The translations under genes and the position numbers were made by a program. The notes below the pieces were generated by a model. The model was not told the DNA's origin and ran no database searches. It saw only the letters and a program-made list of their open reading frames with translations. This document shows positions 3,301 to 54,472 of a stretch of DNA of 64,000 nt, in pieces; position 1 is the first letter of the stretch, and each line of letters opens with the position of its first letter. Source of the DNA: Paraphaeosphaeria minitans (lineage: Eukaryota > Ascomycota > Dothideomycetes > Pleosporales > Didymosphaeriaceae); NCBI GenBank assembly GCA_015832175.1, contig WJXW01000001.1, forward strand, positions 248,001 to 312,000, given 5' to 3'.

Positions 3301-5804
3301 GAGCTTGACGGGTAGTCGGGCTTATCGAAGGCTGCAGGGTTCTCAGATTCGGACTCTTCAAGGCTACCCAATCCATTTGCTGGCTTCCCCTTTGCGCGTA
3401 TGAAATCCATGATCTTGACGGCTTCCGCTAGAAAATCCTGGGTTGTGACAGAGCGCTTCCGGCTCTCGTCCCGCATCACTTGCTGCCTTTCGAGGCTGAA
3501 AGCGGCCACTTCTTCGGCGACGATGACTGCGCGATCCTCATCCGCTAGCGCATCCTGTTCGTTCGCAGGCTCTATATGCTCCCGAATGGTGTTCATCTTG
3601 GGCGATGAGTGTATGAAAGCTTCAGTCGCCTCAAGGATATCGGCTTGGAGTTCTTCCAGTCGCCGCTGACTAGGGGTGGGATTCCGAGGTCTCAGGATGT
3701 GTCGACGTGCAAGGATATGTGGATCTGCGACATTATTTGAGGTGTCGTTGCGATCATCTTTGTGTCTTTGCCCCATAAGTGACGGAGTTGCGGCGCGAAG
3801 ATCATGCATGGGCTGAAGGCCAATGTCCGGAAGGAAGTCTTCGTCATCTTTTTGAATCGTTCTCCGGCGTTTGGGAGTAGGATTCTTGAACGGCGATGTA
3901 GGGCCTCGTTTACCTTCAGCATACTCGCGAAACACTTCCTCGAATTCCTCCGGGCTGGTATTGCTTGATGTCTGGCGAACTATCTGGGGTATTGAACGAC
4001 TCGGTGCTCGGTAGTGGCTCGCCACACGGGCCGATACAAGCCTTCGACCCTGGGATGGCTCTCGCGAGATGGGAGAGGCGTCGTATTCGAAGGTGAGCGC
4101 TGCCCGACTGCCTGGTGGTGCCACGTCCATAAAGGGAGACTCGTCAGGTGCACTGTCTTCGCTATCATTCGACGACATGATTGAGAAGTCGCCAGAGAAT
4201 TGGTACTGGTTCAAATTACCTTCACCGAACGTACTGACGCGGCGTCGTTGCGGATAGGCCGGGCTCGTGGCGTCATATTGCATGCTGACTTCTTCTACTG
4301 ATGTTAAGCGCACCTCCTTGTGGACCTTGGTGGCCTCGATTTTGTTCGTCCGCACGCTGCTGGTGACAGATCCATCAAGCTTGTCGGGTTTGTACTCCAA
4401 TTGACTCAGTCGTCTTTGTAAGCGATTGCTTGTAAAGGTATCGTGGGCGTCGAAGAGCTTCAAAGGGCTACCAGAACCTTTTGTTCGTTCTGGACTTAGA
4501 TTGTTGGACGGAGCATGGCGTCGTGGTGTTTTTGGTGACACAGCGTCTTCTTCGATGGGGCACTCAGGCGCTGCGCTTGCGCTCACACTGACTATTGGGA
4601 TTGTTTCAATGCGCAGTCCACTTTGTTGTTTGGTTTTCTCTGGAGAAGGGCTCAAGGCCCGTCTGCGGAACGAACCGTCTCTTGAATAACCCCCGCGTTT
4701 CATCTCGACAAAGCGCCCCACGCCGTCTGTTATGTCCGCGATACTAGGCGTCCCAGCTGGCAGATCTTCGGGGAGCGAGTCGTCTTGGATCCGCGAAAAA
4801 GATGAATCTTGGTGGCTTTGCATGAGAGATTCCTCCTCGGGCACCGACAAATTGTGCTTCTCAGGCGGTGAGCCAAGGTGTCGCAACCGATTGGCAAGCT
4901 CCGATACTCTGAAATTGGGAATAGGGTCCCGTGGAGCGCTGACTCCAAAATGCTGGCTCAAATAGACTGGACTGAAGTTCTCGTTTTCATATTCGATCTG
5001 GCCGCTTACGGTGCGAGGCGGGCCCTGGTCAAATTGGAGCGAGTCCGCCGACAGCTCACTATCCCTCAAAACCGAGTCTTCAACGATGGAATCGGAACGC
5101 TCCTGTGCGGGTGCTTCAGGCGCATCATCTCGAGCTGGACCAGCGTGTTGGATGACAGAGCCGTCCTGCACGGAGCTGTCCTGCACCGAGTCTTCCTCCT
5201 GCGCAGACCATGGCGGCGGACTTGAGGGCATAGCACTGAGGCCTTTGAGCATATCGCCTCTTCGTTTGGGCGTCTTCTCCTTTGATGCCGGGCCGTTGGG
5301 CTTTTGGAAGATGTTTTCGAGGCCCATAGGACTGAATAGGTCCTTCTGGTCACCGTATCCGATTTTGCCCTCCAGCAGCCTCCGCCTCCATTCCGGTGTA
5401 TCGTGGGAGGACTTGTCGTTGGACGATGATTTGAATACCGGCTTTTGTGCTACCGTGCCCTCGCAGGCAAACGAATCGAGCGAGGCGGCGGAGAAGGAAT
5501 GTGACGCGCCGCGGACGGAGGCAATGTAGGACGCGTCGGCGGATGGGATGTTGTTGTCACTAAGGCTCCGCTCGACCAGCGCGCTCCTTCGTTTCGGCGG
5601 GCGCAGATCATTGGCGACATTTCGGACGCGAATCTCGGAGAACGAGCCGGACGATTGTCGCATGCGGGGAAGGCGACTCTGTAGCTTTGCGGGCACGCTT
5701 TGCGATGTTTGTGGGGATGGTGCGTCTTGCGCATCAGGCGCACTGGTCGGTGTGGGCTGTGCGATCCACTCCTCAGAGAGATCTTCGAGCCACGGCTGGG
5801 TCAT
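314..5804 (-). CDS. SIN/MEN scaffold protein, Nud1/Cdc11-like, LRR C-terminus
   Basis: Predicted 1796-residue protein in three exons: 5804-1432, 1380-1289 and 1239-314. Both introns have GT-AG ends (donors GTAAGT and GTACAG), and joining them gives one continuous leucine-rich repeat series. The N-terminus reads MTQPWLEDLSEEWI, the short acidic/Trp block typical of fungal Nud1/Cdc11 (SnaD in Aspergillus). A long disordered Ser/Pro-rich region of about 1300 residues follows. LRRs then fill about the last 450 residues, with motifs such as LEELNVSDNKI, LQHLDISGNDI and LRSINLNFNSI. In the family this protein sits at the spindle pole body outer plaque and recruits kinases of the septation initiation / mitotic exit network. 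Family assignment rests on the architecture and N-terminal block; length is in the range expected for filamentous fungi. It is divergent from the gene starting at 6446. Confidence 0.85.
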
Positions 5805-6445
5805 GTTGGCGGTCGACGGTGTGCCACTTGGCGGGGAAGATGCGCGTGTGGTTGTTGACGATTGTGTTGATGTGGAAAAGACGCGTGGGGGGAGGAATTA
5901 CGCGAGCGCATGCATCTTCATGTGCGCGTTGGGAGCCAGAATGGCAGTGTTGAGCGAGCAACGCGAGGTCAGCTCAAAATACTTGGTTGTATTAACACAC
6001 AAGGGTGCGACCAAGTTCCCCGTTAGTGATGTCTGATTAGAGGTCACGTGGTGCTATCGATGCTATCGATTTCCCCGATGTCTCGTCGCTAGAGCAACGA
6101 GACGACGGCTCTGCGCAGGCACGGTTCACAGACGACCACGGGCCAAACCTTCCCCACCACTAGGGCCGTCACCAAACGCTATCACGCGGTCGTCTAGGGG
6201 TCTGAGCAAAATCGACCGCCTTCTGCTTCATCGGACCGTTACTCCTCGCCGTGCGCGGAAGCTGCCACTGTCGAGCGCGATGCGAGACCAACACCAACGC
6301 CGGCCCCCCTCACACAACCTAACTGCCGCAGGGATTCTCATGACTCTGCCCAGACCGCGCGCCAACCTTTTGCTCAGCCTAGAATAACACTTGCGCCACC
6401 TCGCGCGCGTCCACGACCGACCGGGGCGGCACACGAGCACCCACA
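5805..6445. promoter_or_regulatory. divergent intergenic promoter region
   Basis: About 640 bases lie between the start codons of two divergently transcribed genes (Nud1/Cdc11-like on minus, serine/proline-rich unknown on plus). It must hold both promoters. A short direct repeat, tgctatcga, occurs twice at 6052-6069. I see no further gene in it. Confidence 0.45.
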
Positions 6446-8674
6446 ATGCCCAGAGTCCATGCGCAGCTCAGACGTGTGACTGACATCGACCCTGTATTCA
6501 TACAACCCGAAGACATTATAGAGCCAGAGCCCGACGAGAATGAGAACGAGAATGCTGGACGGAGAGCCCGGAAACGTCGGCGGATCGAGACCATTGCCAA
6601 TCAATACCTCAAGCTTGGGAGGGTGCCGCTCATCGTGTCTGCGGGACTGCGTGGTCCCTTCAGTAATGGGTGGAAGAATCCTTGGGTGAAGGCGCCATCA
6701 CAGACGACCAAGGAAGCTGTGCAATCGGAAGCGAAAGTGACAGCTGCACAGGAGGACCAAACTGCGAATCCTGCTCGCGCAAGGACAAGACGTGCCAAAT
6801 CGGATAACCCCCCACCGGCGTCATCTGTTCCGTCCCCAGAGGCCTCGCGCGCTCCCGATATCGCTCAGGACAGCGTTTTGCCCTCAGTAGACCTTCCAGA
6901 TGAAGACTATAGTCCACCAGATGCGTCAACGGCTCAGCATGATGATTCGGGTGCTACGGAATCCTTCAGCGCGGACCTAGGCCCTTCCGTCACTTTTGAT
7001 AATTCCGGGGGCAATCCTTTCTGGTTGAAACGCCCACAGTTGAAGTCGGCGGCCTTTCGCGACTCCGTTAACGGCGGCCACGATCCTTCGCCGACACGTG
7101 CTCGTCTGGGGCATAGGCCAGTAGATCGGAATGGACGACTACTACTTGTCACACCAAGACAGCCTGTCAGCATGTTGCAGTCTGACCCTGGAGCAAACCC
7201 GAGCCCAGAGCCAGACTGGATGTCGGCCGCTTCTGCCTCGATGATTGGAACATCACCTGCAAAACCCACCAATATCATCCAAGAGAACACATCTTCTGTG
7301 CCCTCGACGAGGAGGAAGCGGACCTACTCCAAGTTTGAAAGAAACAATACCAGAGGAGACCAAAGTGCAAACGGCGCAGCTGGGGACATCTCACCGCCAG
7401 AACAGATCACCAGACGAAATACATCGAGGGATCCTTCGCAACATTCCGGGGATGCCGAGGACCGCAGAGCGCCCACCGACAATGAAAACACGGCTTATAA
7501 TACCTCGGGATTCACTCCAATCAATAGGCCATCGCGAAGTGCCAAGCCCTCTCAATTCAAAGAGAAAGAGCTCTATGCATTGCAGGGGCAGAAGATTGTT
7601 GCGCAACAAATGTTCCTGTCAGCTCCGAATACCGAAACGCGCAATCCGAACAAAGACATTCAAAATTCTGCAGAACCACATCTTGCAACATCTCCGTCCC
7701 GCTCGGCACGCACCGCCCAGACGAAGAAGAATGTCGAGGGAGCTACGCCTTCTCTACGCCACGATCACATCACATCACCGACATTGGCTGCTTCGATTGG
7801 CTTCATTTACAGAAAAGTTGGAGAGGCAAAACGAATGAAGACTAATAACAAGCAGAAGGGACGGCCTATAACATTCAGCTTCCCGGCTATCATAAACCAA
7901 CCGCCTGTGGAGATAGCTGAACACGAGACTGAGCCCGTTAATGAGGCCACCGAGCACGAATCTGTCGCTACAGCAGACAGTCGAACCGAACGACCAGACA
8001 TTTGGGACGTACCGGGGAGCCCACCACAACGGGAGCAACAGAGCTACAAATCGAGCCGTACTCCAGGCCTCTCAACACAGGCCGCGTTTATGATGGCCCA
8101 GATGGAATTTCAAGACGGCACGATGCCTACTGTAGCTGAAGATGCCCCAACGCCATGGCCCCCTAGCACGGCGAACGAGGACCCTATCGTACCCAGTCCG
8201 GCATTCACCCCATTTCACAAATTCAATGCAACACTAGAGGAGCACTACGCATCCGAATCCACTATGCCAGACATGCCCATCAGTACACAGGATCTTTTCG
8301 CGACAATATCTCCTTTCGCTAACAGCACGGTAAAAAAATCTACGAGGGTTCCGGCAACTAACTTGAAATTTTCGGTCTTTGAGAACAGAAAGCAAGATAG
8401 TCCCAGCCACAATGGTCGTCGATATCGCACTCGGAGCCCTGCGTCTCCTCAGCGCAAACCACTACAAGAGAAGAACAGCCGGGTGTCTCTGCTTGGATCG
8501 CAGTCGGACAAGGGATCGCAGGGCGACAGAGCATCTCAGGAGTCTGTCACGCCCCGACCATCCAAGGCTCCCGTGGTACAATCTACGGGGCTCCCGCAGC
8601 TGGAATTTTGCACTTCAAATGGCGATCTCGATTTCACAGATCGCTTCTTGATCAACATGAACGAGACGACCTGA
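6446..8674 (+). CDS. conserved-looking fungal protein of unknown function, disordered
   Basis: Single-exon frame of 742 codons starting at an ATG in the context cacaATGCC. I do not recognise a catalytic family. The most ordered part is the N-terminus: an acidic stretch (residues about 18-35), a basic KRRR cluster that could be a nuclear localisation signal, then IANQYLKLGRVPLIVSAGLR followed by GPFSNGWKNPW, which looks like a conserved core motif. The rest is Ser/Pro/Thr-rich and low in hydrophobics, with no signal peptide or membrane segment. A second short conserved-looking segment is near residues 450-475 (IGFIYRKVGEAKRMK). Nuclear location is an inference from the basic cluster only. That the frame stays open over 2.2 kb supports a real gene. 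Confidence 0.7.
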   Translation: MPRVHAQLRRVTDIDPVFIQPEDIIEPEPDENENENAGRRARKRRRIETIANQYLKLGRVPLIVSAGLRGPFSNGWKNPWVKAPSQTTKEAVQSEAKVTAAQEDQTANPARARTRRAKSDNPPPASSVPSPEASRAPDIAQDSVLPSVDLPDEDYSPPDASTAQHDDSGATESFSADLGPSVTFDNSGGNPFWLKRPQLKSAAFRDSVNGGHDPSPTRARLGHRPVDRNGRLLLVTPRQPVSMLQSDPGANPSPEPDWMSAASASMIGTSPAKPTNIIQENTSSVPSTRRKRTYSKFERNNTRGDQSANGAAGDISPPEQITRRNTSRDPSQHSGDAEDRRAPTDNENTAYNTSGFTPINRPSRSAKPSQFKEKELYALQGQKIVAQQMFLSAPNTETRNPNKDIQNSAEPHLATSPSRSARTAQTKKNVEGATPSLRHDHITSPTLAASIGFIYRKVGEAKRMKTNNKQKGRPITFSFPAIINQPPVEIAEHETEPVNEATEHESVATADSRTERPDIWDVPGSPPQREQQSYKSSRTPGLSTQAAFMMAQMEFQDGTMPTVAEDAPTPWPPSTANEDPIVPSPAFTPFHKFNATLEEHYASESTMPDMPISTQDLFATISPFANSTVKKSTRVPATNLKFSVFENRKQDSPSHNGRRYRTRSPASPQRKPLQEKNSRVSLLGSQSDKGSQGDRASQESVTPRPSKAPVVQSTGLPQLEFCTSNGDLDFTDRFLINMNETT

Positions 8675-12889: not shown

Positions 12890-13946
12890 TTACGCCAGCT
12901 TCCCCGGCACAAAGGGATGGCCCGCGCTCAACCCCCCGTCCACAGCCCACGCCTGCCCGTTGACATAGCTCGCCTCCTCGCTCCCGAGGAACAAGACCGC
13001 GCGCGCAATCTCATCCGCCACCCCGCCGCGCCTCAGCGGATTCAGCTGCCCAATCTTGCCCGCGCTGCCCCGCGCCCGCGCCGCGTCGTACGTGACCTTT
13101 GTCATGCCCGTCTCGATCAACCCGGGACACACGGCGTTGCACCTGATGCCCGACCCCGCGAGCTGGAACGCACACGTCTGCATGAGCGAGACGACGGCAG
13201 CCTTGGAGGCGGAGTAGTCGGTGGGCCCGGCGTTGGAGCGCAGGCCCGCGACCGAGGCGGTTGCGATGATGGAGCCGCGGGGGTAGGGTTTCGTTTCGCT
13301 GGTCTTGAGCATGGCGCGGGACGCGTATTTGGCGGCGAGGAAGACGGATAGCGTGTTGACGCGCAGCATCTTCATGAAGTCGGCCGTGTCTGCGTCCCAG
13401 AAGACTTTGGCGCTGCTGATGCCTGCGTTGGCGAAGAAGATGTCCAGGCGTCCATAGGTGGCGAGTGCGTCGTTGACGACGGCTTTGACCGAGGCCTCGT
13501 CCGCGGCGTCGAAGACGCGCGTGTGGATTTCTACAGACGGGTAGAGGGAGGCGAGCTCGCGCTTGTGCGTGGGGAGGTGGGCGTCGGCGAAATCGCAGAT
13601 GTAGATTGCGCGAGCGCCGTTGCGGGCGAATTGGTGGGCCGAGGCGCGCCCGATGCCGATGGGGGAGTTGCAGCCCGTTATGATGATCACTTTGTCTTTT
13701 ACGCGTCTGGGGTATGGTCAGCGGTTATGTGGGTTGCGCGAGAGGCTGGCTGGGGTTGGGGCTTTGTTGCTGGGAGAGGGCCGGCGGTGGAAAGGATGAG
13801 AGAGTAGAGGGAGAAACGTACTGGGAACCCAGATCCCCGGCTATTTCTCGCACGCGTGGTATGTCTTCAAACGTCCCTGGGTCTTGCGGGCCTTCTGAGA
13901 GCTCTCTGCTGAGGCCCTGCTGTTTTGCTTTGGGATCGGCTGGCAT
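12890..13946 (-). CDS. short-chain dehydrogenase/reductase (classical SDR)
   Basis: Predicted 313-residue protein from exons 13946-13822 and 13706-12890. The 115-nt intron has a GTACGT donor and a CCCCAG acceptor; the join gives Gly-Ser-Gln-Arg-Val-Lys-Asp before the Rossmann core. The nucleotide-binding motif is IIITGCNSPIGIG (residues about 49-61), there is an NAG motif (FFANAGIS), and the catalytic Ser (ATASVAG), Tyr and Lys (DYSASKAAV, Tyr about 206, Lys about 210) are all present. It ends with the usual GQAWAVDGG segment. It should be an NAD(P)H-dependent oxidoreductase. The aspartate after beta-strand 2 (IYICDFAD) hints at NAD(H) preference. The substrate cannot be told from sequence. 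The first 40 residues are a non-core extension. Confidence 0.9.
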
Positions 13947-16265: not shown

Positions 16266-19033
16266 CTAAACTTGCCTGGGTGGCTTCGCGTCACAAAGCG
16301 ATGCATGATGAGTATGTAGAGACAGTACAAACCACAAGACAATCAATTCGTGAGAATACCTGCCCCCTACTCTCACCCAGCGCCATGCCTCCAACCACTC
16401 TCTAGTACAAATTATTCCCACCGCCAGCACCCCACTGCCTTCCGCCACCCTCACTCTGTTGACCATGCTGACCGTGCTGACCATACACCCCTCCCCCATA
16501 CCCACCGCCCTGCTGCTGCTGCTGCTGCGCACCCTCATACCCCTGCTGATATGCCGTCGGCACGGTATAACTCGGCTCCGCGCCCTGCCCCCATGATACT
16601 GTCCCTGAGCACCCCAACCACCGACATTGCCGTTGTACTCTGGCGCGCCGTGAGCCTGGCCGCCCGCGTAGGAAGACTGGTACGGCTGGAATGAGCCCCA
16701 ATCGTGCGTGGGGCCTGGAGAGGGAGACGGCTGGTACGCCGATTGGGAATGGCCGTACGAAGACTGCGGTGCGGACCCGTCGAAATCTTCAACCTCGCGC
16801 TTCCCGCTTCCGCCGAACATGTTGAGCGCGGGGCTGAGCTTGTTGCCCAGGCCACCGGGGAGGTTGCCCACGAGGCTACCGAGGAGGCCTCCGCCGCTGC
16901 TGGAGCTCGCGTGCGACTGCTGCCCGTAGCCGCTGGAGTGTGACTGCTGCTGTGCGTGTCCGCCTCCATGACCGTGACTCATGAACGACGAGACACCCGC
17001 GGCGCCGTGGCCGGAGCCGTGGCTGTGGTCGTTGCCGCCGCTATGGTTCTTGCCTGCGCGGACGCTCTCAGAGCTGAGGATGTGGTTGAGGTCGCCGCCG
17101 CGGTAACTCTGTGTCCACTTCTCGACGACGGAGAACATGTTCCTGTGGATTTCGCTGTCGTGGTTTCGGACGGCCGGGTGGTGGAAGACTTGCATGCAAT
17201 CGTTGAGGACCTGGTCGATAGGGACATCCGGGTGGTCGAAAGCGTAGACTACGCGGGGCGCTACGAATTGCAGGATTGCGACTGCGATTTGACCGGCGGG
17301 TGCGTTGAGGACGTTAGAGAAGTGGTCCTTGGAGAGCATGCTGTGGGTGGGGTCAGAGGAATGCGGGTGTGTCCAGACTTCGAATTGGTGCTTCGCCGCC
17401 GAGTCAATGACGGTAGAGGAGCCCTGCTTGAGAGACTCGGACGCCTGCTGGATGATTGGCATGACGAATGGAGCAAGCAAGGACAGCACGAAGAGGGTCA
17501 CGCGCTCGGTGATCGTCTCAATGAGCTTCTCCAGACCAGGTATCTTCTCGATGATCGCGGAGATGCTCCTGACCACCTTATCGCGGAACTCCAGGATTGG
17601 ATAAATCTTAGGGATGATGGTCGCCGGGTCAGTATTTGTGCCTGGGATGTTAGGTCCTGGTGGCCCACCGACAGACCCAGGAGGCGCGTCAAAGGTAGGG
17701 TCCCCTTGGCCAGGACCAACAGCTCTCGAGCTGCTGTAATCGTTATAACCTCCGCTTCGGTACCCGTGTCCTGAGATGGCGGCAGCTTGCGCATCAGACT
17801 GTGCCTGAAGCTGCTGAGCTTCTTTGACCAACCCACTGGTTCCTGGAACCCTCCCCAGGACATCCGTAAGAGCCGAGCAGCTGCCTCCACTTCCTTTCGT
17901 ATTGTTCGTCAATGCATCTGACAGTGTTGTGTTCATCTCGTCAACTTCAGATTGCGTGATGTGGTCCGTCGCTTCGCCTAGCACAGAATGGAAGAAATCA
18001 ACACCTCCAAAGGTTCCGGTTACGAGAGGGTACACATGCTTGCCGTGGAGGTTGATCTGGGTCTGGGTTCCTGTATGCGCGAAAACGTTTGAGTATCCTA
18101 GTTCTCGTAACGCAAGCTCGGTATAGTTGGTGTGTGCACCGAAATCTTCCAGGCAATGGAGGCCTTGTCCGAGACACCGCAATGCTTCCGCAAGATTTGC
18201 TTCGTTTCCGCGCTCTCCATTGGGTCCGTGAGTATACATGCGGCCGTAGTGGATCGCTCGGGAGAAAGAAAACTTGACATAGCCTGCCGAAGTCGCCCAA
18301 TTGCCTCTCTCGTTGGCGATATAGTTCTTCATTCCAGTCTCCGGATCGACCGCAAGCTCGATATCTGTGACGGGTCCGCGCAGACGGGGGTCGAATTTCC
18401 TGGCATCCTGGTTGTCGGCATAGTCTTTCGGGTTGTCGATGTGCTCTTCTGGCCTGTAAACACCAAGTCGGTCGGCGGTGACCTCAAATTCGCCAGTCGC
18501 ATACCCGAATGACATAAAAGACAGGATCCACACAAGCACGCGAATGGTGTCACCCTTGGCGGCTGTTAGTTTAGATACGCGGCACACTGGCAGATTGGGG
18601 ACTCACTTGGACTTTGCTCAGAGTTGCGGTATCTACGGCCTGTAAATCATTAGTATGGTCCACGATTGAGCAGAAGGTATCGTCGTCCCTGGGAGTAGTC
18701 TCGGAGCCAGTTGCCAAAGTACACGCGCTGCCATAGATTAGTCCGTACGCTTTGCTATGCGCATCATGTAGAGCACACCTTGATCATCATAGACTTCCAC
18801 TTGTGACCTTTCAAGCACGCGACCGTAGCGAGCATGTCCTCGATGTCTCCATGGCGCCAGTTCTTTCCTTCGATAGCAGATATCGATCTACGCCATTCAT
18901 CAGCACGTGTATCTGCCTTTGTTTTAGTGATAGCTCACGCAATGTTGCCCGCACCAAAAGCGTGCGCCTTCGCTGGTAGCAGCACCAGCACCGCGAGCAC
19001 GATCAGCAGCACGTATTTCGCTTGAATTCCCAT
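16266..19033 (-). CDS. het-c: HET-C heterokaryon incompatibility protein, with two apparent lesions
   Basis: Exons on minus: 19033-18939, 18887-18779, 18727-18689, 18639-18607, 18554 onward. The start encodes a signal peptide (MGIQAKYVLLIVLAVLVLL...). The spliced product matches the Het-C family: NWRHGDIEDML, VYFGNWLRDYSQ, TIRVLVWILSFM, HCLEDFGAHTNY, VYPLVTGTFGG, then a Gly/Ser/His-rich C-terminal region. The family affects heterokaryon compatibility; a glycolipid-transfer-like role is suggested for some members. Two oddities. The intron after DYSQ (18688-18640, 49 nt, good branch site TACTAAT and TTTACAG) begins GG instead of GT; retention would give an early stop. At a run of five G near 16596-16600 the Gly/Gln-rich tail shifts frame: the literal frame ends at 16266 with an atypical Arg/Val-rich tail, while the glycine-rich tail continues in another frame to 16402. 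Either a decayed allele or sequence errors. Confidence 0.85.
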
Positions 19034-20927: not shown

Positions 20928-22034
20928 CTACAAGTTCGAGTCTTGCTCCAACGGCAGCCCCAGGCCGCCCTCCGAAACCGGCTTGTGATTCGGATTGTCG
21001 TAGCCCCAGTACTCATAATACTTGTCCGCAGCCGGTAGCTGCTTAATGCCCGGCTTGTCGCCCTCTGGCTGCTTCATCACTTCGACGTACTTGTCCATAT
21101 CGATGCTGTTTTCCCTGCGCCAGTCGGTGAACTTGTCAAAGTTGTGGCACTTCTTGTTGATAGACCTAATCCACGGTGTCAGCGACAAACGATACAATCC
21201 GTGGGAGGGGACCTGCGACGTACATGTCTGCGAAGGGATACGCTTGTGTGTACATCCAAACGAGCGGGATCATGTCCAAGTTGCCGGAGCACTGGATCGA
21301 TTGGAGCAGGATATCGAAGCAGTGGTTCATGTGCAACTCCCGCTGCATAACCTTGTCCGCGCGAGCCTGGCTCATGTTGTCTGTCGGGGCACGTTAGTCA
21401 AGAGTCGCCCTCAAAGCTGGCAAGCCAACGCGGCCAACTCACAATAACCCCCATACACGACCTTGCGCAACGAGTTCAGGCAGTGCAGCTGATGGTAAAC
21501 ATCAAAGATGGCAGCGTACGCGTTGTCGCCCAAGCCCCAGTCTTTGTCCTCCAGCTTGGCTACAGTTGTGTAGTCCTTGCCCATCTTGGTGAGCTCTTCG
21601 CGCGTGACGGGATACACGCGTGTCAACTCCCACTCCTCCCAGATTTTGTCGTCAGCAGGGTTGGGCTGGTGCCGCATGATACTGCCGCCTTCCTTGGGCG
21701 GGAAGAACGTTCCGTTGATGGTCGTATCCTCGAAATCAACAGCATATTTGTCGTATATGGGACTGTACCCGGATACTCTTCGAAGAGCTGCGTTACGCAC
21801 GAGATAGTGGCTGTAGAACCAGGTTCCGAAAAAGCTGATGGAAATGAGGAGGGCAGAGAGGTTGATGATAGAAACAAGTATGAGTGCTCGACGGCTTATA
21901 AGGAATTGCCGCTGGTCTTTTGTGTGCACACCGCTGATGAAGCCTTTTGTCTCATATTCGTCTGATTCTGAAGTTGAGTCTCGGCTACTGCCTGAGGCAA
22001 CCGGTTTGTATTCAAGCTTCTCTAACCACTTCAT
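20928..22034 (-). CDS. UstYa-family (DUF3328) oxidase-like membrane protein
   Basis: Predicted 328-residue protein from exons 22034-21443, 21380-21224 and 21165-20928. Introns have GTGAGT and GTACGT donors and ACAG and TTAG acceptors, and all phases fit. A cytosolic Ser-rich N-terminus is followed by one membrane segment (residues about 50-75). The lumenal domain carries both hallmark HxxHC motifs, YHQLHCLNSLR (His181 to Cys185) and HMNHCFDILLQ (His214 to Cys218). In ustiloxin, asperipin, phomopsin and epichloecyclin pathways, such proteins are needed for oxidative cyclisation of Kex2-released peptides. An upstream in-frame Met at 22097 would add 21 residues; I prefer 22034 because MKWLEKLEY fits family N-termini. 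It is divergent from the precursor gene at 23239, with about 1.2 kb between start codons, suggesting co-regulation. It contributes to the putative RiPP pathway. Confidence 0.92.
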
Positions 22035-23238
22035 GACGGCGATGAAGAGCGTAATGAAGAGAGGGTGTAAGCTTGCACATGTGCAGTCGAAAAGCAAGCT
22101 TACATGCGGAGCTGATTGATGCGTCAGTCAGGACGGTTTGGGGCTCACCAAGCTTAGTATCGCCTCATCTATCACCACACATCGCTGCTTCTCCGCGATC
22201 ACGACGTAGATAAGACTAGTGCTGTCGAGCTGCATCAAGGTGATTCCTCCGGATCCTAAAATGATGCTCGTCTTCTGATTGGTCAGCTCGGATCCTGCGT
22301 ACGTCTTGCTACATTCTCGCTAACATGATGCTACATGTTCACCGAGATCTTGCCAAGTCAAACGTTGTCACACCTTCCTAGCCAGGTAAAAGCGGTTGAG
22401 CTAGCTCTGACGAGTGCGGTGTAAGCGCACAAACCACCTGCCTCGTTCGGTCAGGTTGCAGCATATCAGAGTGTAGGATTCTACATACATCATATACTGT
22501 AGCTGCTGGAATGTTAGGCCCAATTTCGATCGGAACTAATAAAAGTCGGTTGATCAATCTATGGATGCTCTAAGTGGTGCGGTCCGTAACGGGAAGATCA
22601 ACTTCAGCAGCGTCCCTTAACCTTCAAGATCCAACTCGTCTGGAGAGCAGGCTGAGCTGCATGCCAGTGTATGATCCCTCAAGCGGATCTCGAGACCACC
22701 GAGCGATGAGTGAATGTGTGAGAGATATTACTGTGCAGGCATTCTTCATAGGGTGACAGGCATCCACTCCTTTGAAAGATCCGATTGAAACGCACTCACA
22801 GGTTCTAGCCCTCGCAGTCACCAATGCTGCTGATCACCGGACGTGTTATGACTATGGTGGCGACCGCGTGCCTCTCGGTGCCCGGGGGCAGTATTCCCTC
22901 GCATACTGCATACTTGCGATTATTTGGGGGTCTGTAGACACCGATTGGCACAGCTCGTTCAGCTGATATTAAGGCAATGCTGCGTCTCCGTCCGTAAGTG
23001 GTAGATGCTGCGAGCCGTCCCCACAATGGCAACATAATCCTTCGATGTAAGAGGAAAGGCTGTCATGTGGACGATCATTCTGCGGGAAGATAACGAACTC
23101 GAGTGAATACCGCCGAATGTACCTGATTTGTACGCTCTACTATGTATATAATTGAATTGGCACCCTCTGACCACACGTTAGACACCAGGTCCCGTCACAT
23201 TACGTTTATTGAGCATTTACCCTATTTTCTCTTCCAAA
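22035..23238. promoter_or_regulatory. bidirectional promoter region of the putative RiPP pair
   Basis: This 1.2-kb region separates two divergently transcribed genes, the UstYa-family gene (minus) and the KR-repeat precursor (plus). The layout would allow common control. I see no convincing gene inside it; short frames have no motif. A TATA-like element near the precursor is listed separately. No cluster-specific binding site is identified. Confidence 0.5.
23145..23150 (+). promoter_or_regulatory. TATA-like element upstream of peptide precursor
   Basis: The sequence tatata, within ctatgtatataattg, lies 89 bases before the precursor start codon. This fits a TATA box with a 5'UTR of roughly 60 bases. 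It is assigned on position and sequence only. Confidence 0.4.
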
Positions 23239-23683
23239 ATGCGTCTCATCGAAGCTCTCAGCGCTGCGGCGCTCTTCTCCACGCTTGGAGCTGCTGCTCC
23301 TGTTGCGAAGAGCGAGAAGAGGACCGAGTTCGCCCCTTGGTACCGTGCGACAAACATCTTGCCCGTCAGCGATGACAAGCGCTCCGTCGACAAGGTAAGT
23401 CAGCTCAAAAATTCCAACCGATATGCTGTATGCTGAAGCCGAGAAGCGCACTGAGTTCTCTCCTTGGTACCGCGCGACCAACATCCTTCCGGCCAGCGAT
23501 GACAAGCGTGACATTCAAGCACCTGAGGAGAAGCGCACCGAGTTCGCACCCTGGTACCGTGCGACCAACATCCTTCCGGCCAGCGATGACAAGCGTGACA
23601 TTCAAGCACCTGAGGAGAAGCGCACCGAGTTCGCGCCCTGGTATCGCGCGACCAACATTCTCCCCGCCAGCGACGACAAGTGA
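23239..23683 (+). CDS. secreted Kex2-processed repeat peptide precursor (putative RiPP precursor)
   Basis: Predicted 131-residue protein from exons 23239-23394 and 23444-23683. The 49-nt intron has a perfect GTAAGT donor. Read without splicing, the frame stops inside the intron, so splicing is needed. Residues 1-20 form a signal peptide (MRLIEALSAAALFSTLGAAA). Four copies of an 18-residue peptide, TEF[A/S]PWYRATNILP[A/V]SDD, occupy residues 29-46, 55-72, 84-101 and 113-130. Each is preceded by Lys-Arg and followed by Lys-Arg, or by a final Lys and stop. Repeats 2/3 and 3/4 are separated by DIQAPEE. This is the architecture of fungal Kex2-processed repeat precursors such as UstA, PhomA and GigA. 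Trp and Tyr in the core are the type of aromatic residues that UstYa-family enzymes cross-link. The neighbouring divergent DUF3328 gene supports this role. An alpha-type mating pheromone is the alternative, but the core lacks the usual features. The product itself is unknown. Confidence 0.88.
23323..23677 (+). repeat. four 54-bp core-peptide repeats
   Basis: Core coding units lie at 23323-23376, 23450-23503, 23537-23590 and 23624-23677. Units 2 to 4 recur at an exact 87-bp spacing. Linker DNA between 2/3 and 3/4 is identical over its length, indicating recent tandem duplication. Unit 1 sits in the first exon and differs at one residue (Val for Ala); unit 2 has Ser for Ala at position 4. The first unit is separated from the rest by the intron. 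Confidence 0.9.
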
Positions 23684-52040: not shown

Positions 52041-53990
52041 TCACCATATATCGATGACTTGCGTTACGATTGGCCATGCCTCAAGCTTGCACCCACAGCA
52101 TGTGCACAAGGCATGCCTTAACGCCCTGTACAAGAAGCATTCTCCCACGAGTACGTAATGTTCGCCCACTTGCCTGAGGACGAAGGGCACGTCGGCACCG
52201 TCCAACGCGAAGATCTCGTCTGTCACCTGCACATCTGCTCGCGCAACGCCAGCTGATCGCTTCGTCTCGAACATGGTTTTTCCCTCGCCAAGAACCCTTT
52301 TCATGTCTCGATCGAACTCTTTAGATATCGCATGGGGTATGGTAGGTGTGTGTTGGCAGATGGGGGTTACTACGAAATGCTCTGAACAGGGCGCACAGAG
52401 CCGACGACGCTCAAGGACGTGTGGGACATTGCGCCCGCGATGATGGATCAGATTGTATGAACGGAAACCAACAACCTTCTGGATGGTGTCGAGCAAATGC
52501 GCGCGCACCCTTAAGCACGGTATCCTTGTTGAAGGAGACGTGCCAAAAACACCCTCATCCCAACGGTGCAAATTCGGTTCACCCTGAATTATAGCAGAGT
52601 GAAAACCTGGAGAATTGATCTGGGTAATTGATAGTGATATACCTTCGATATCCGGGTTTACCCCGTTCGACGTTCGCTTTTCTCGTGTCGGACATGTTTT
52701 CCCACTGTAATCAACCCATCGATCGAATGACCGCAACCACGCGTTCGATGACAAAGGTTGCTGATCCTCGGGAAGATCCTTCAGGAACCCCTGCAACAGT
52801 TCCTTCGATAGATCCGTCTCGGGCGGCTGACTTTGCAATGGCAGCCTACACCAGGTCGAGGCAAGAGCGTCCAGGTCGTCAGCGTGGAATTGCGCCGGTA
52901 GAGGGTCGTAGCCGGATTTCATGTCCCATTGTGGAACCCAGCTGGGTATGTCGCGCAGTTCCTGCGAAGCTTCTATTTGGCCGCTGGCATACGCCAAAAA
53001 CCGCAAATCTCTCTCGACGTAGAAGAGGTGTATAATAAGCTGGGTGTAAACTTCTTCCGTGGTCAAGGAGTAATTGACTGGAAAGCTTTTTTGGAAGTCT
53101 TCGTTCGCCAAACCAAGCACCGCAAATACTTTGTCTCTAGGGTCGGTCGAAGTACAATTTCTGCTCTTGTGAAGAACAGACAGAAAATCGCGTTCGGGTT
53201 GGCTTGCAGGCAGCCAGCGCAACGCACTCGGCGGTTCTCTATTTGTACATAATCTGAGGACTTTATTGATGGTCTCCAAAGTCCAATGGATAGTCTTCTC
53301 GCCCACTACCATGGTCGCAAGTTTTGCTAGGGCAATTTCCTGGAGGACCCATACTCGATCAAACCAACGGTGGTCCAGAAAGTCACTGATGACACTGTGG
53401 ATAATGATGCGTTTGTCGGTCTCGGTCTCGTTGCCATTGAGGTAGTTGAGCAGTCTGTCGGTCGCCGGAGTGCCAGGGCCAAGATATATGACTACTTGAG
53501 AGGCGTTTGCATATATGGTGCCCATGAATCCAACCTGATGGTTCCGTTCTTCGACGTTGGTCTGGTCGATGCAGACGGCGTCCACCCAAAGGTACCTGTT
53601 GCGACCCGGCAAACGAAGGCGTCGTAGGGCCGCTTCGCATGTCTTTGTTACTAGAATGGTTCCACCATGACAGTCGACTGTCTTTGATAGCGAATCATCG
53701 CCATCTTGGGTTGCCCACGAATAGCTGATCGCCTCATATGATGGATGGTTTCGAACGTTGACGTGCATGAGATCAACCACCACGTCATCTGGAGTTCGCC
53801 CAGGGAACAGCACACATATCCGGATTTCTTGTCCCCGCGAATAGTTGAGATGGGCGTATTTGTACGGCGTGTTCCTTGAGCGGGGTAACTCGGGCGTGGG
53901 GTTGGTCACAATATCGAAAATTGTCTCCCCGCAGGCTAAGCAGCACCGCAGGCCATCGAATACCTGGATATCATGATGTCTACACGGCAT
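52041..53990 (-). CDS. HET-domain heterokaryon incompatibility protein
   Basis: Single-exon frame of 649 codons starting MPCRHHDIQVF. The HET domain (about residues 84-225) shows its three signature blocks: YEAISYSWA, LWVDAVCIDQTN and WFDRVWVLQEIALA. A Cys-rich N-terminus (CCLACGETIFD) precedes it. The middle continues with DPRDKVFAVLGLAN and WVPQWD, common to this large family, and the C-terminal half is variable. HET-domain proteins trigger cell death when incompatible nuclei share cytoplasm, usually with a partner allele; this one has no NACHT or repeat domain. The only other incompatibility-type gene here, het-C, is about 33 kb away. The frame is intact. Confidence 0.92.
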   Translation of the reverse strand: MPCRHHDIQVFDGLRCCLACGETIFDIVTNPTPELPRSRNTPYKYAHLNYSRGQEIRICVLFPGRTPDDVVVDLMHVNVRNHPSYEAISYSWATQDGDDSLSKTVDCHGGTILVTKTCEAALRRLRLPGRNRYLWVDAVCIDQTNVEERNHQVGFMGTIYANASQVVIYLGPGTPATDRLLNYLNGNETETDKRIIIHSVISDFLDHRWFDRVWVLQEIALAKLATMVVGEKTIHWTLETINKVLRLCTNREPPSALRWLPASQPERDFLSVLHKSRNCTSTDPRDKVFAVLGLANEDFQKSFPVNYSLTTEEVYTQLIIHLFYVERDLRFLAYASGQIEASQELRDIPSWVPQWDMKSGYDPLPAQFHADDLDALASTWCRLPLQSQPPETDLSKELLQGFLKDLPEDQQPLSSNAWLRSFDRWVDYSGKTCPTREKRTSNGVNPDIEGISLSITQINSPGFHSAIIQGEPNLHRWDEGVFGTSPSTRIPCLRVRAHLLDTIQKVVGFRSYNLIHHRGRNVPHVLERRRLCAPCSEHFVVTPICQHTPTIPHAISKEFDRDMKRVLGEGKTMFETKRSAGVARADVQVTDEIFALDGADVPFVLRQVGEHYVLVGECFLYRALRHALCTCCGCKLEAWPIVTQVIDIW

Positions 53991-54472
53991 TTCGTATTGC
54001 TTTGTCGTTGCAAGAGAGACAGCTGAGTCTCAATGTATGAAGGCTGAGGGCTAAGAAACCTCGGCATATTTTCTGAGTTAGCCAATCAGGCGTGGTAAGT
54101 CTCGTATTTCGCATTCAGATCATGTTTTTTCCTTCTTCGCTTCAGCTCCCATCTGTGAATTGTGTGGTTCTTGGATGCATGGGCAGAGGGCACTGCGGTC
54201 TTGAGGCAGCATAGCAACCAGCAATGAAGGCTGCTCGACGCGAGCGACTCATGATTTTCGCAGTAAACAACAATTTATAGATCATGTCTTATTGTACGAT
54301 GTCGATGTCGAAGATGTGCGGATAAGCAAACAAGGTTGGTGGTGTGCGGAAGTAAGGGTGAATGGCCCACGTTCGGCATCACCCGCTCCATCGCCAAGCT
54401 GTCAACACCGTTATTCCAGCGCTGCTTTAAGCCTCGGAGCCCGTCTCCCCACGCGACACCATCCTCGGAAAC
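53991..54472. promoter_or_regulatory. divergent intergenic region
   Basis: About 480 bases between the HET-domain gene start (minus) and the next gene start (plus). It should carry both promoters. No site assigned. Confidence 0.4.

Follow-up and report, generated by a model that had tools for sequence, protein, structure and literature searches.

The stretch of DNA analysed here (the window; 64,000 nucleotides of contig WJXW01000001.1 of Paraphaeosphaeria minitans) contains two divergently transcribed genes, one coding for a small precursor protein in which a peptide unit stands four times behind Lys-Arg (KR) sites, the other for a membrane protein of the UstYa family. P. minitans is a pleosporalean dothideomycete (taxonomy look-up) and a mycoparasite that attacks Sclerotinia (PMC7026392). 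The features of the pair are listed below; the splice junctions of both genes were predicted from the sequence.

23239..23394, plus strand: precursor exon 1, with the signal-type N-terminus (MRLIEALSAAALFSTLGAAAP), KR, core unit 1 and KRSVDK
23323..23376, plus strand: core unit 1, TEFAPWYRATNILPVSDD, directly after KR
23395..23443, plus strand: precursor intron of 49 nt, GTAAGT...GAG, with an alternative in-frame acceptor at 23446
23444..23683, plus strand: precursor exon 2, with core units 2-4, KR-DIQAPEE-KR spacers and the stop
23450..23503, plus strand: core unit 2, TEFSPWYRATNILPASDD, directly after KR
23537..23590, plus strand: core unit 3, TEFAPWYRATNILPASDD, directly after KR
23624..23677, plus strand: core unit 4, TEFAPWYRATNILPASDD, directly after KR
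22035..23238, no strand: spacer between the two start codons, 1204 bp, genes divergent
20928..22034, minus strand: UstYa-family gene, predicted to have 3 exons (22034-21443, 21380-21224, 21165-20928) and to encode 328 residues

The precursor gene is predicted to have two exons (donor GTAAGT at 23395, acceptor AG at 23443) and to encode 131 residues. If the acceptor at 23446 is used, as in the public model P0001 (VDKRTEF), the precursor is one residue shorter and its four units are unchanged. Hydrophobic residues at positions 3-14, together with small residues at -3/-1 at 17-20, predict a signal peptide; the N-termini of relatives are mostly of the MR...AAP type. The exon and unit coordinates bear out the initial annotation of this DNA, made from the letters alone, which had described a 131-residue precursor with a signal-type start and four KR-preceded 18-mers. 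The unit consensus is TEF[AS]PWYRATNILP[AV]SDD, 18 residues repeated four times with Lys-Arg before each, and all four core units contain Tyr. The four 18-mers reach the published repeat count for Kex2-processed repeat proteins (KEPs), i.e. at least three repeats of at least eight residues between Kex2 sites (PMC7329392, PMC6339444), and the genome has one Kex2-type P-domain gene.

At the DNA level the repeat measures 87 nt and is present in four copies. Over these 87 nt the identity to unit 2, taken as the reference, is 69%, 94% and 71%; the value of 94% belongs to unit 3, and the other two are low because their 87 nt extend into the intron or beyond the stop. Summed over all pairs of the four cores there are 35 synonymous and 6 nonsynonymous codon differences, which argues that selection has preserved the peptide. 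The core DNA pattern TGGTAYMGNGCNACNAAYAT has four matches in the 47.45-Mb genome, all in the window precursor (reversed control pattern: 0), and no second precursor copy was found, as the window precursor searched against the genome matched this locus alone. A single-core relative used as the genome query gave three weak matches at the window locus and one at E 0.7 on contig C10.

The 328-residue protein matches PF11807 (UstYa) with an E value of 2.4e-43 at residues 48-269, with 59 residues beyond the domain. It carries two HxxHC motifs (HQLHC at 181 and HMNHC at 214), in both of which H, H and C are invariant across 30 aligned UstYa proteins, and the second motif is at least 90% conserved in 36 UstYa proteins. 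There is one strong membrane segment, the top five hydrophobic 19-residue windows all beginning at 49-53. Again this agrees with the initial annotation, which had named a divergent membrane UstYa protein with two HxxHC motifs across a 1.2-kb spacer; the spacer is presumed to be a shared promoter region. Across its full length the protein has 100% identity to P0011 (PMIN03_007070) of P. minitans, and it shares 58-65% with the five full-length, genus-named relatives of its group in a UstYa tree (Melanomma, Clathrospora, Ascochyta, Neocucurbitaria, Neodidymelliopsis); for the best-scoring UstYa paralogue of the same genome the figure is 31%, over 213 columns. The best match of the precursor is P0001 (PMIN03_007071), with 99% over 78% of the query. 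That record is annotated with three units and the window precursor has four; strains may differ in the number of units, or the cause may lie in the assembly or the gene model.

The core had seemed to match no known product, and the database searches show that it is not an orphan. A single-sequence search gave 10 precursor matches, and a profile of these and the window protein gave 60 at E values up to 10, of which three (P0178-P0180) lie above 0.01; all 60 sequences were inspected. The core Y[RK][AS]TN occurs in 56 of the 60, once in 46 proteins, twice in 4 and three times in 6, so that a repeat layout is not a defining trait of the family. Of the four proteins in which the core is missing, P0178-P0180 read WYRG at this place and end soon after, as if at an intron, and the model of P0165 (Ascochyta rabiei EKO05_0010179) ends before the core (KRELADSNLAV); here the public gene model probably conceals the peptide by a stop or a splice. 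Small precursors of this kind seem easy to mis-annotate.

Among the 56 cores Arg is found in 56, Ala in 54 and Ile in 55. The residue preceding the core Tyr is Trp in 50 cores, Ile in 5 and Thr in 1, and the position four before it is occupied by Tyr (51 cores) or Phe (5). As the selection pattern itself demands Tyr, Thr and Asn, only Arg (56/56) and the outer positions are informative. As judged from these alignments, the constant part is about [YF]xxWYRATNI, narrower than the whole 18-mer that had been proposed as the core unit, and the window pair would accordingly belong to a precursor family, as yet without a name, whose core resembles this motif. In the multi-unit members P0141, P0151, P0155 and P0161 some later or additional units depart from YRATN (WYRPVQF, YRPFEF, YPVHTL, YPVRTL), with Tyr retained.

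The usual single-core protein consists of a signal, in most cases an MPTPEEF leader bounded by KR, the core and the stop. Of the 46 single-core proteins 37 stop 0 or 1 residue past the 18-residue core (among them P0141, which has an additional divergent unit ahead of the core), and in 45 of the 56 core-bearing proteins the last core Tyr lies 11 or 12 residues from the C-terminus; for this reason we regard the single-core form as mostly not a product of truncated gene models. The remaining nine continue past the core (P0007-P0010, P0156, P0161, P0162, P0166, P0169), and P0169 resembles the first exon of a repeat gene such as that of the window. The PTPEEF leader is present in 40 of 54 comparable rows and absent in the window protein, P0001, P0002, P0003 and P0169. 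Over these 54 rows the mean pairwise identity is 0.96 for WYRATNI, which is an upper value as the search favours proteins sharing query words, 0.70 in the leader and 0.53 in residues 1-22.

The named sources of the precursors are Byssothecium, Clathrospora, Setomelanomma, Pyrenophora, Alternaria, Pleomassaria and Ascochyta, which we take to be Pleosporales, as well as Lophium, Mytilinidion and Cytospora; by taxonomy look-up Lophium belongs to the Mytilinidiales and Cytospora to the Sordariomycetes. The Cytospora records P0035, P0170, P0171 and P0174 comprise precursors of C. chrysosperma and C. mali and a UstYa protein of C. schulzeri that lies near the dothideomycete group. Their occurrence in this genus could be due to horizontal transfer, or to an old origin followed by losses. 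DNA of the precursor relatives was found neither in scans of viral or prokaryotic contigs with an 18-precursor alignment nor in a plasmid protein search, results that are uninformative on fungal distribution. The core and leader strings are in no paper of the PMC literature searched, subscription papers and supplements being outside its scope. The largest survey for dikaritin precursors covered 1461 strains and required at least three tandem repeats (PMC7329392). In contrast to KEPs, the 46 relatives with one core fall under this count, and in their present database form they were therefore beyond the reach of the survey; the supplementary tables of the KEP surveys may include a member that does bear repeats.

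In some of the relatives the precursor is physically linked to a UstYa gene. The UstYa search listed 120 relatives, and linkage was judged only from locus tags and from precursor and UstYa matches whose longest contigs are of exactly equal length in bp, with shifts of 1-200 bp as the control. Six of the 60 precursors coincide exactly with a UstYa match, on contigs of 100935, 12498, 12735, 4275, 5980 and 1396774 bp. Over all contigs the shift control gave a mean of 0.34 coincidences and never more than 3. Among contigs over 3 kb, a class that holds 36 precursors and all six linked ones, the mean was 0.03 and the maximum 1. In two species the equal-sized contigs are accompanied by consecutive locus tags, i.e. 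007070/007071 (P0011/P0001) in P. minitans and 0010178/0010179 (P0019/P0165) in Ascochyta rabiei.

It is useful to compare these features with those of the dikaritins, of which five had been reported by 2022, epichloecyclins (gigA) and victorin among them (PMC10512285). In ustiloxin, phomopsin and asperipin-2a the core is cyclised via the Tyr ring, for which DUF3328/UstYa proteins are required (PMC7329392, PMC6514808, PMC10512285). The asperipin-2a system of Aspergillus flavus (aprA/aprY) resembles the window locus in that it has a Kex2-type precursor, one UstYa gene and no tyrosinase (PMC6514808, PMC7329392). It differs in its core, FYYTGY with three Tyr, and in being a four-gene cluster with a transporter and a reductase, neither of which was seen beside the window pair; the precursors were compared by description only. 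Ustiloxin (UstA/UstYa/UstYb) and phomopsin share with the window locus a signal peptide, KR-bounded repeats, the UstYa family and a core Tyr, but both depend on a tyrosinase, and their UstYa genes number 2 and 5, respectively (PMC7329392). The phomopsin core is YVIP, as opposed to WYRATNI in the window. Ustiloxin cores are YAIG/YVIG, and the cores of epichloecyclin and victorin are not known to be related to that of the window. Known dikaritin products are trimmed cores, and the intact cyclised 18-mer, set in the initial annotation beside a trimmed core, is thus one option only.

The window was searched for further pathway genes as well. Of its 63 stop-to-stop open reading frames of at least 180 residues, antisense frames included, 25 were scanned with Pfam besides the two genes and gave no match to a tyrosinase, methyltransferase, peptidase or secondary-metabolite transporter; the remaining frames may hold more. 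Within this scope the two-gene character of the locus, and the absence of the first three enzymes next to it, held. None of the 23 tyrosinase matches of the genome is on the contig of the window. The window locus therefore lacks the tyrosinase of ustiloxin and phomopsin, and as asperipin-2a is also without one, this enzyme is not required for the class.

On these grounds we consider it likely that the pair is a dikaritin-type locus for a ribosomally synthesised and post-translationally modified peptide (RiPP), in which Kex2 would release the core and the locus's own UstYa protein would modify it oxidatively, probably at Tyr. The precursor, given its signal-type N-terminus, would enter the secretory pathway, where Kex2 would cut after Lys-Arg, and the membrane-anchored neighbouring UstYa protein with its two HxxHC motifs would oxidise the core, most likely via Tyr, by analogy with ustiloxin, phomopsin and asperipin-2a. 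The 18-mer may then be trimmed by peptidases. The MPTPEEF leader, found in most listed relatives with a single core, may be a recognition element, and so may the acidic tail; in the lineage of the window the leader is absent and the unit of core plus KR appears to have been multiplied. With respect to the Trp/Tyr cross-link suggested at the outset, Tyr is the better candidate: since Trp precedes it in only 50 of 56 cores, a bond requiring Trp cannot be general, and we prefer Tyr as the modified residue.

A number of points weigh against this reading. By the equal-contig test 54 of the 60 precursors are unlinked to UstYa, and in Clathrospora elynae and Cytospora mali the listed precursor and UstYa protein are on contigs of differing size (50315 and 131752, and 187045 and 784365, respectively). 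In the tree, made from 36 proteins chosen from the 120 listed, the six linked UstYa proteins fall in one group of 16 (support 98/99), which Cytospora schulzeri joins at 100/99, but 47 of 500 label shuffles were equally clustered and the tree therefore adds little to the linkage. The conservation of the core is partly built in, through the exact-word search and the choice of 56 rows by Y[RK][AS]TN. In the Cytospora-type members the core is preceded by EAR-K, without KR, and so Kex2 cutting appears doubtful there. The predicted structure of the UstYa protein is of moderate confidence (mean pLDDT, the predicted local distance difference test, 71); compared with PDB folds it gave 25 matches at E values up to 10 and none at 0.001, and the sequence had no match among PDB sequences. 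Moreover, UstYa proteins act outside RiPP pathways too (PMC12048977).

One may ask whether the units are instead a linear signalling peptide, a pheromone or a hormone, with the UstYa gene being a chance neighbour or acting on something else. For a toxin the core varies very little, KR-bounded repeats are the layout of alpha-pheromone precursors too (PMC6339444), and the genome has a Ste2-type receptor gene. Its own pheromone precursor was not revealed by three patterns for two known alpha-pheromone types: one PYG pattern had a single match, unlike a precursor, the second PYG pattern had none, and the two-Cys pattern had 14 scattered matches (reversed control 3). However, the window core contains neither Cys nor PYGxPxG and so is not of a known dothideomycete alpha-pheromone type, and no X-Ala/X-Pro run of the Ste13 kind lies between KR and core in the window precursor. 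Alpha-pheromones of Pleosporales carry PYG[LM]P[IV]G, those of Pyrenophora tritici-repentis included (PMC6339444), and the same species has a WYRATN precursor, P0159. Furthermore, 98.6% of 216 putative fungal pheromone KEPs are without a DUF3328 neighbour (PMC7329392), whereas UstYa adjoins the window precursor, and the six exact equal-contig linkages speak against chance. The pheromone explanation is thus weakened and we regard it as unlikely.

It is also improbable, in our view, that UstYa modifies the core otherwise than by macrocyclisation, e.g. by desaturation or hydroxylation, to give a linear modified peptide. UstYa proteins desaturate phomopsin residues, and hydroxylate and chlorinate in cyclochlorotine (PMC10512285, PMC12048977); the constant core Tyr, on the other hand, resembles the cross-linked residue of known members, and the sequence itself does not separate the two readings. 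A decayed or silent locus, with the repeats as a relic and without a product, would agree with the long branch (0.58) of the window UstYa within its group and with the missing MPTPEEF leader, but both frames are open, the splice sites fit and synonymous codon differences between the units prevail, so that we find this explanation very hard to believe.

Returning to the oxidatively modified RiPP as the preferred reading, the window locus joins the dikaritin-type KEP/UstYa loci as a further member. The new element is a UstYa-linked precursor family whose commonest listed form is without repeats and whose core is nearly fixed. The cores of KEPs are highly diverse across fungi (PMC7329392), and as this core is nearly the same in Pleosporales, Mytilinidiales and Cytospora, its constancy fits a conserved target or signal better than a diversifying toxin. 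We tentatively speculate that the product could be a cross-linked peptide hormone or a conserved-target effector of filamentous ascomycetes, with a constant WYRATNI, a single-core precursor and a dedicated UstYa protein, the precursor being repeat-amplified in a few lineages. If so, this would be a dikaritin-like system of constant function, invisible to repeat-based surveys, that has persisted in Pleosporales and Mytilinidiales and occurs in Cytospora as well. The WYRATNI family offers a fixed substrate for learning how a single UstYa protein acts. As the likely producer attacks Sclerotinia, the product may have a bearing on mycoparasitism, but this is speculative.

Other loci of this layout occur in the genome. 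A script for KR-bounded repeats was run at 3-copy and 2-copy settings on 18 other UstYa stretches of 10 kb, and on five 10-kb comparison stretches (two of them overlapping) from the rest of the window, in which no such repeats were found. Repeats were detected in L018 at the 3-copy setting and in L016, where four copies emerged at the 2-copy setting only, having been missed at the 3-copy setting probably through the low-complexity filter; a two-copy match in L021 is doubtful. L018 (G000:C1:76400-86399) has on the plus strand, at about 6250-6850, four to five SASVDQAFYNAAYYGLK units adjoining a UstYa gene. L016 (G000:C16:656000-665999) has on the minus strand, at about 4872-5548, a repeat precursor with QWYD[IT]TYVD-KR units that adjoins two UstYa matches, lies beside the best-scoring paralogue (31%) and shows weak similarity to the precursor of the window (tblastn E 0.012).

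Among the scanned frames of the window Pfam recognised Sen54, Prp31 and eIF3h, a HAT-repeat splicing-type protein, a class II (D, K, N) tRNA synthetase and a PP-loop protein, the last two each split into two pieces, and furthermore a mitochondrial carrier, a short-chain dehydrogenase/reductase (SDR), a glutathione S-transferase (GST), a HAD protein, leucine-rich-repeat (LRR) proteins and a sub-threshold 14-3-3 match; 8 of the 25 frames had no Pfam match. The SDR gene at 12890-13717 was not included in the locus, as 7 kb and other genes separate it from the UstYa gene. No RNA families were found in the window. A Het-C gene (16266-18602, minus strand) and a HET-domain gene (52041-54029, minus strand), both of heterokaryon-incompatibility type, are also present in the window.

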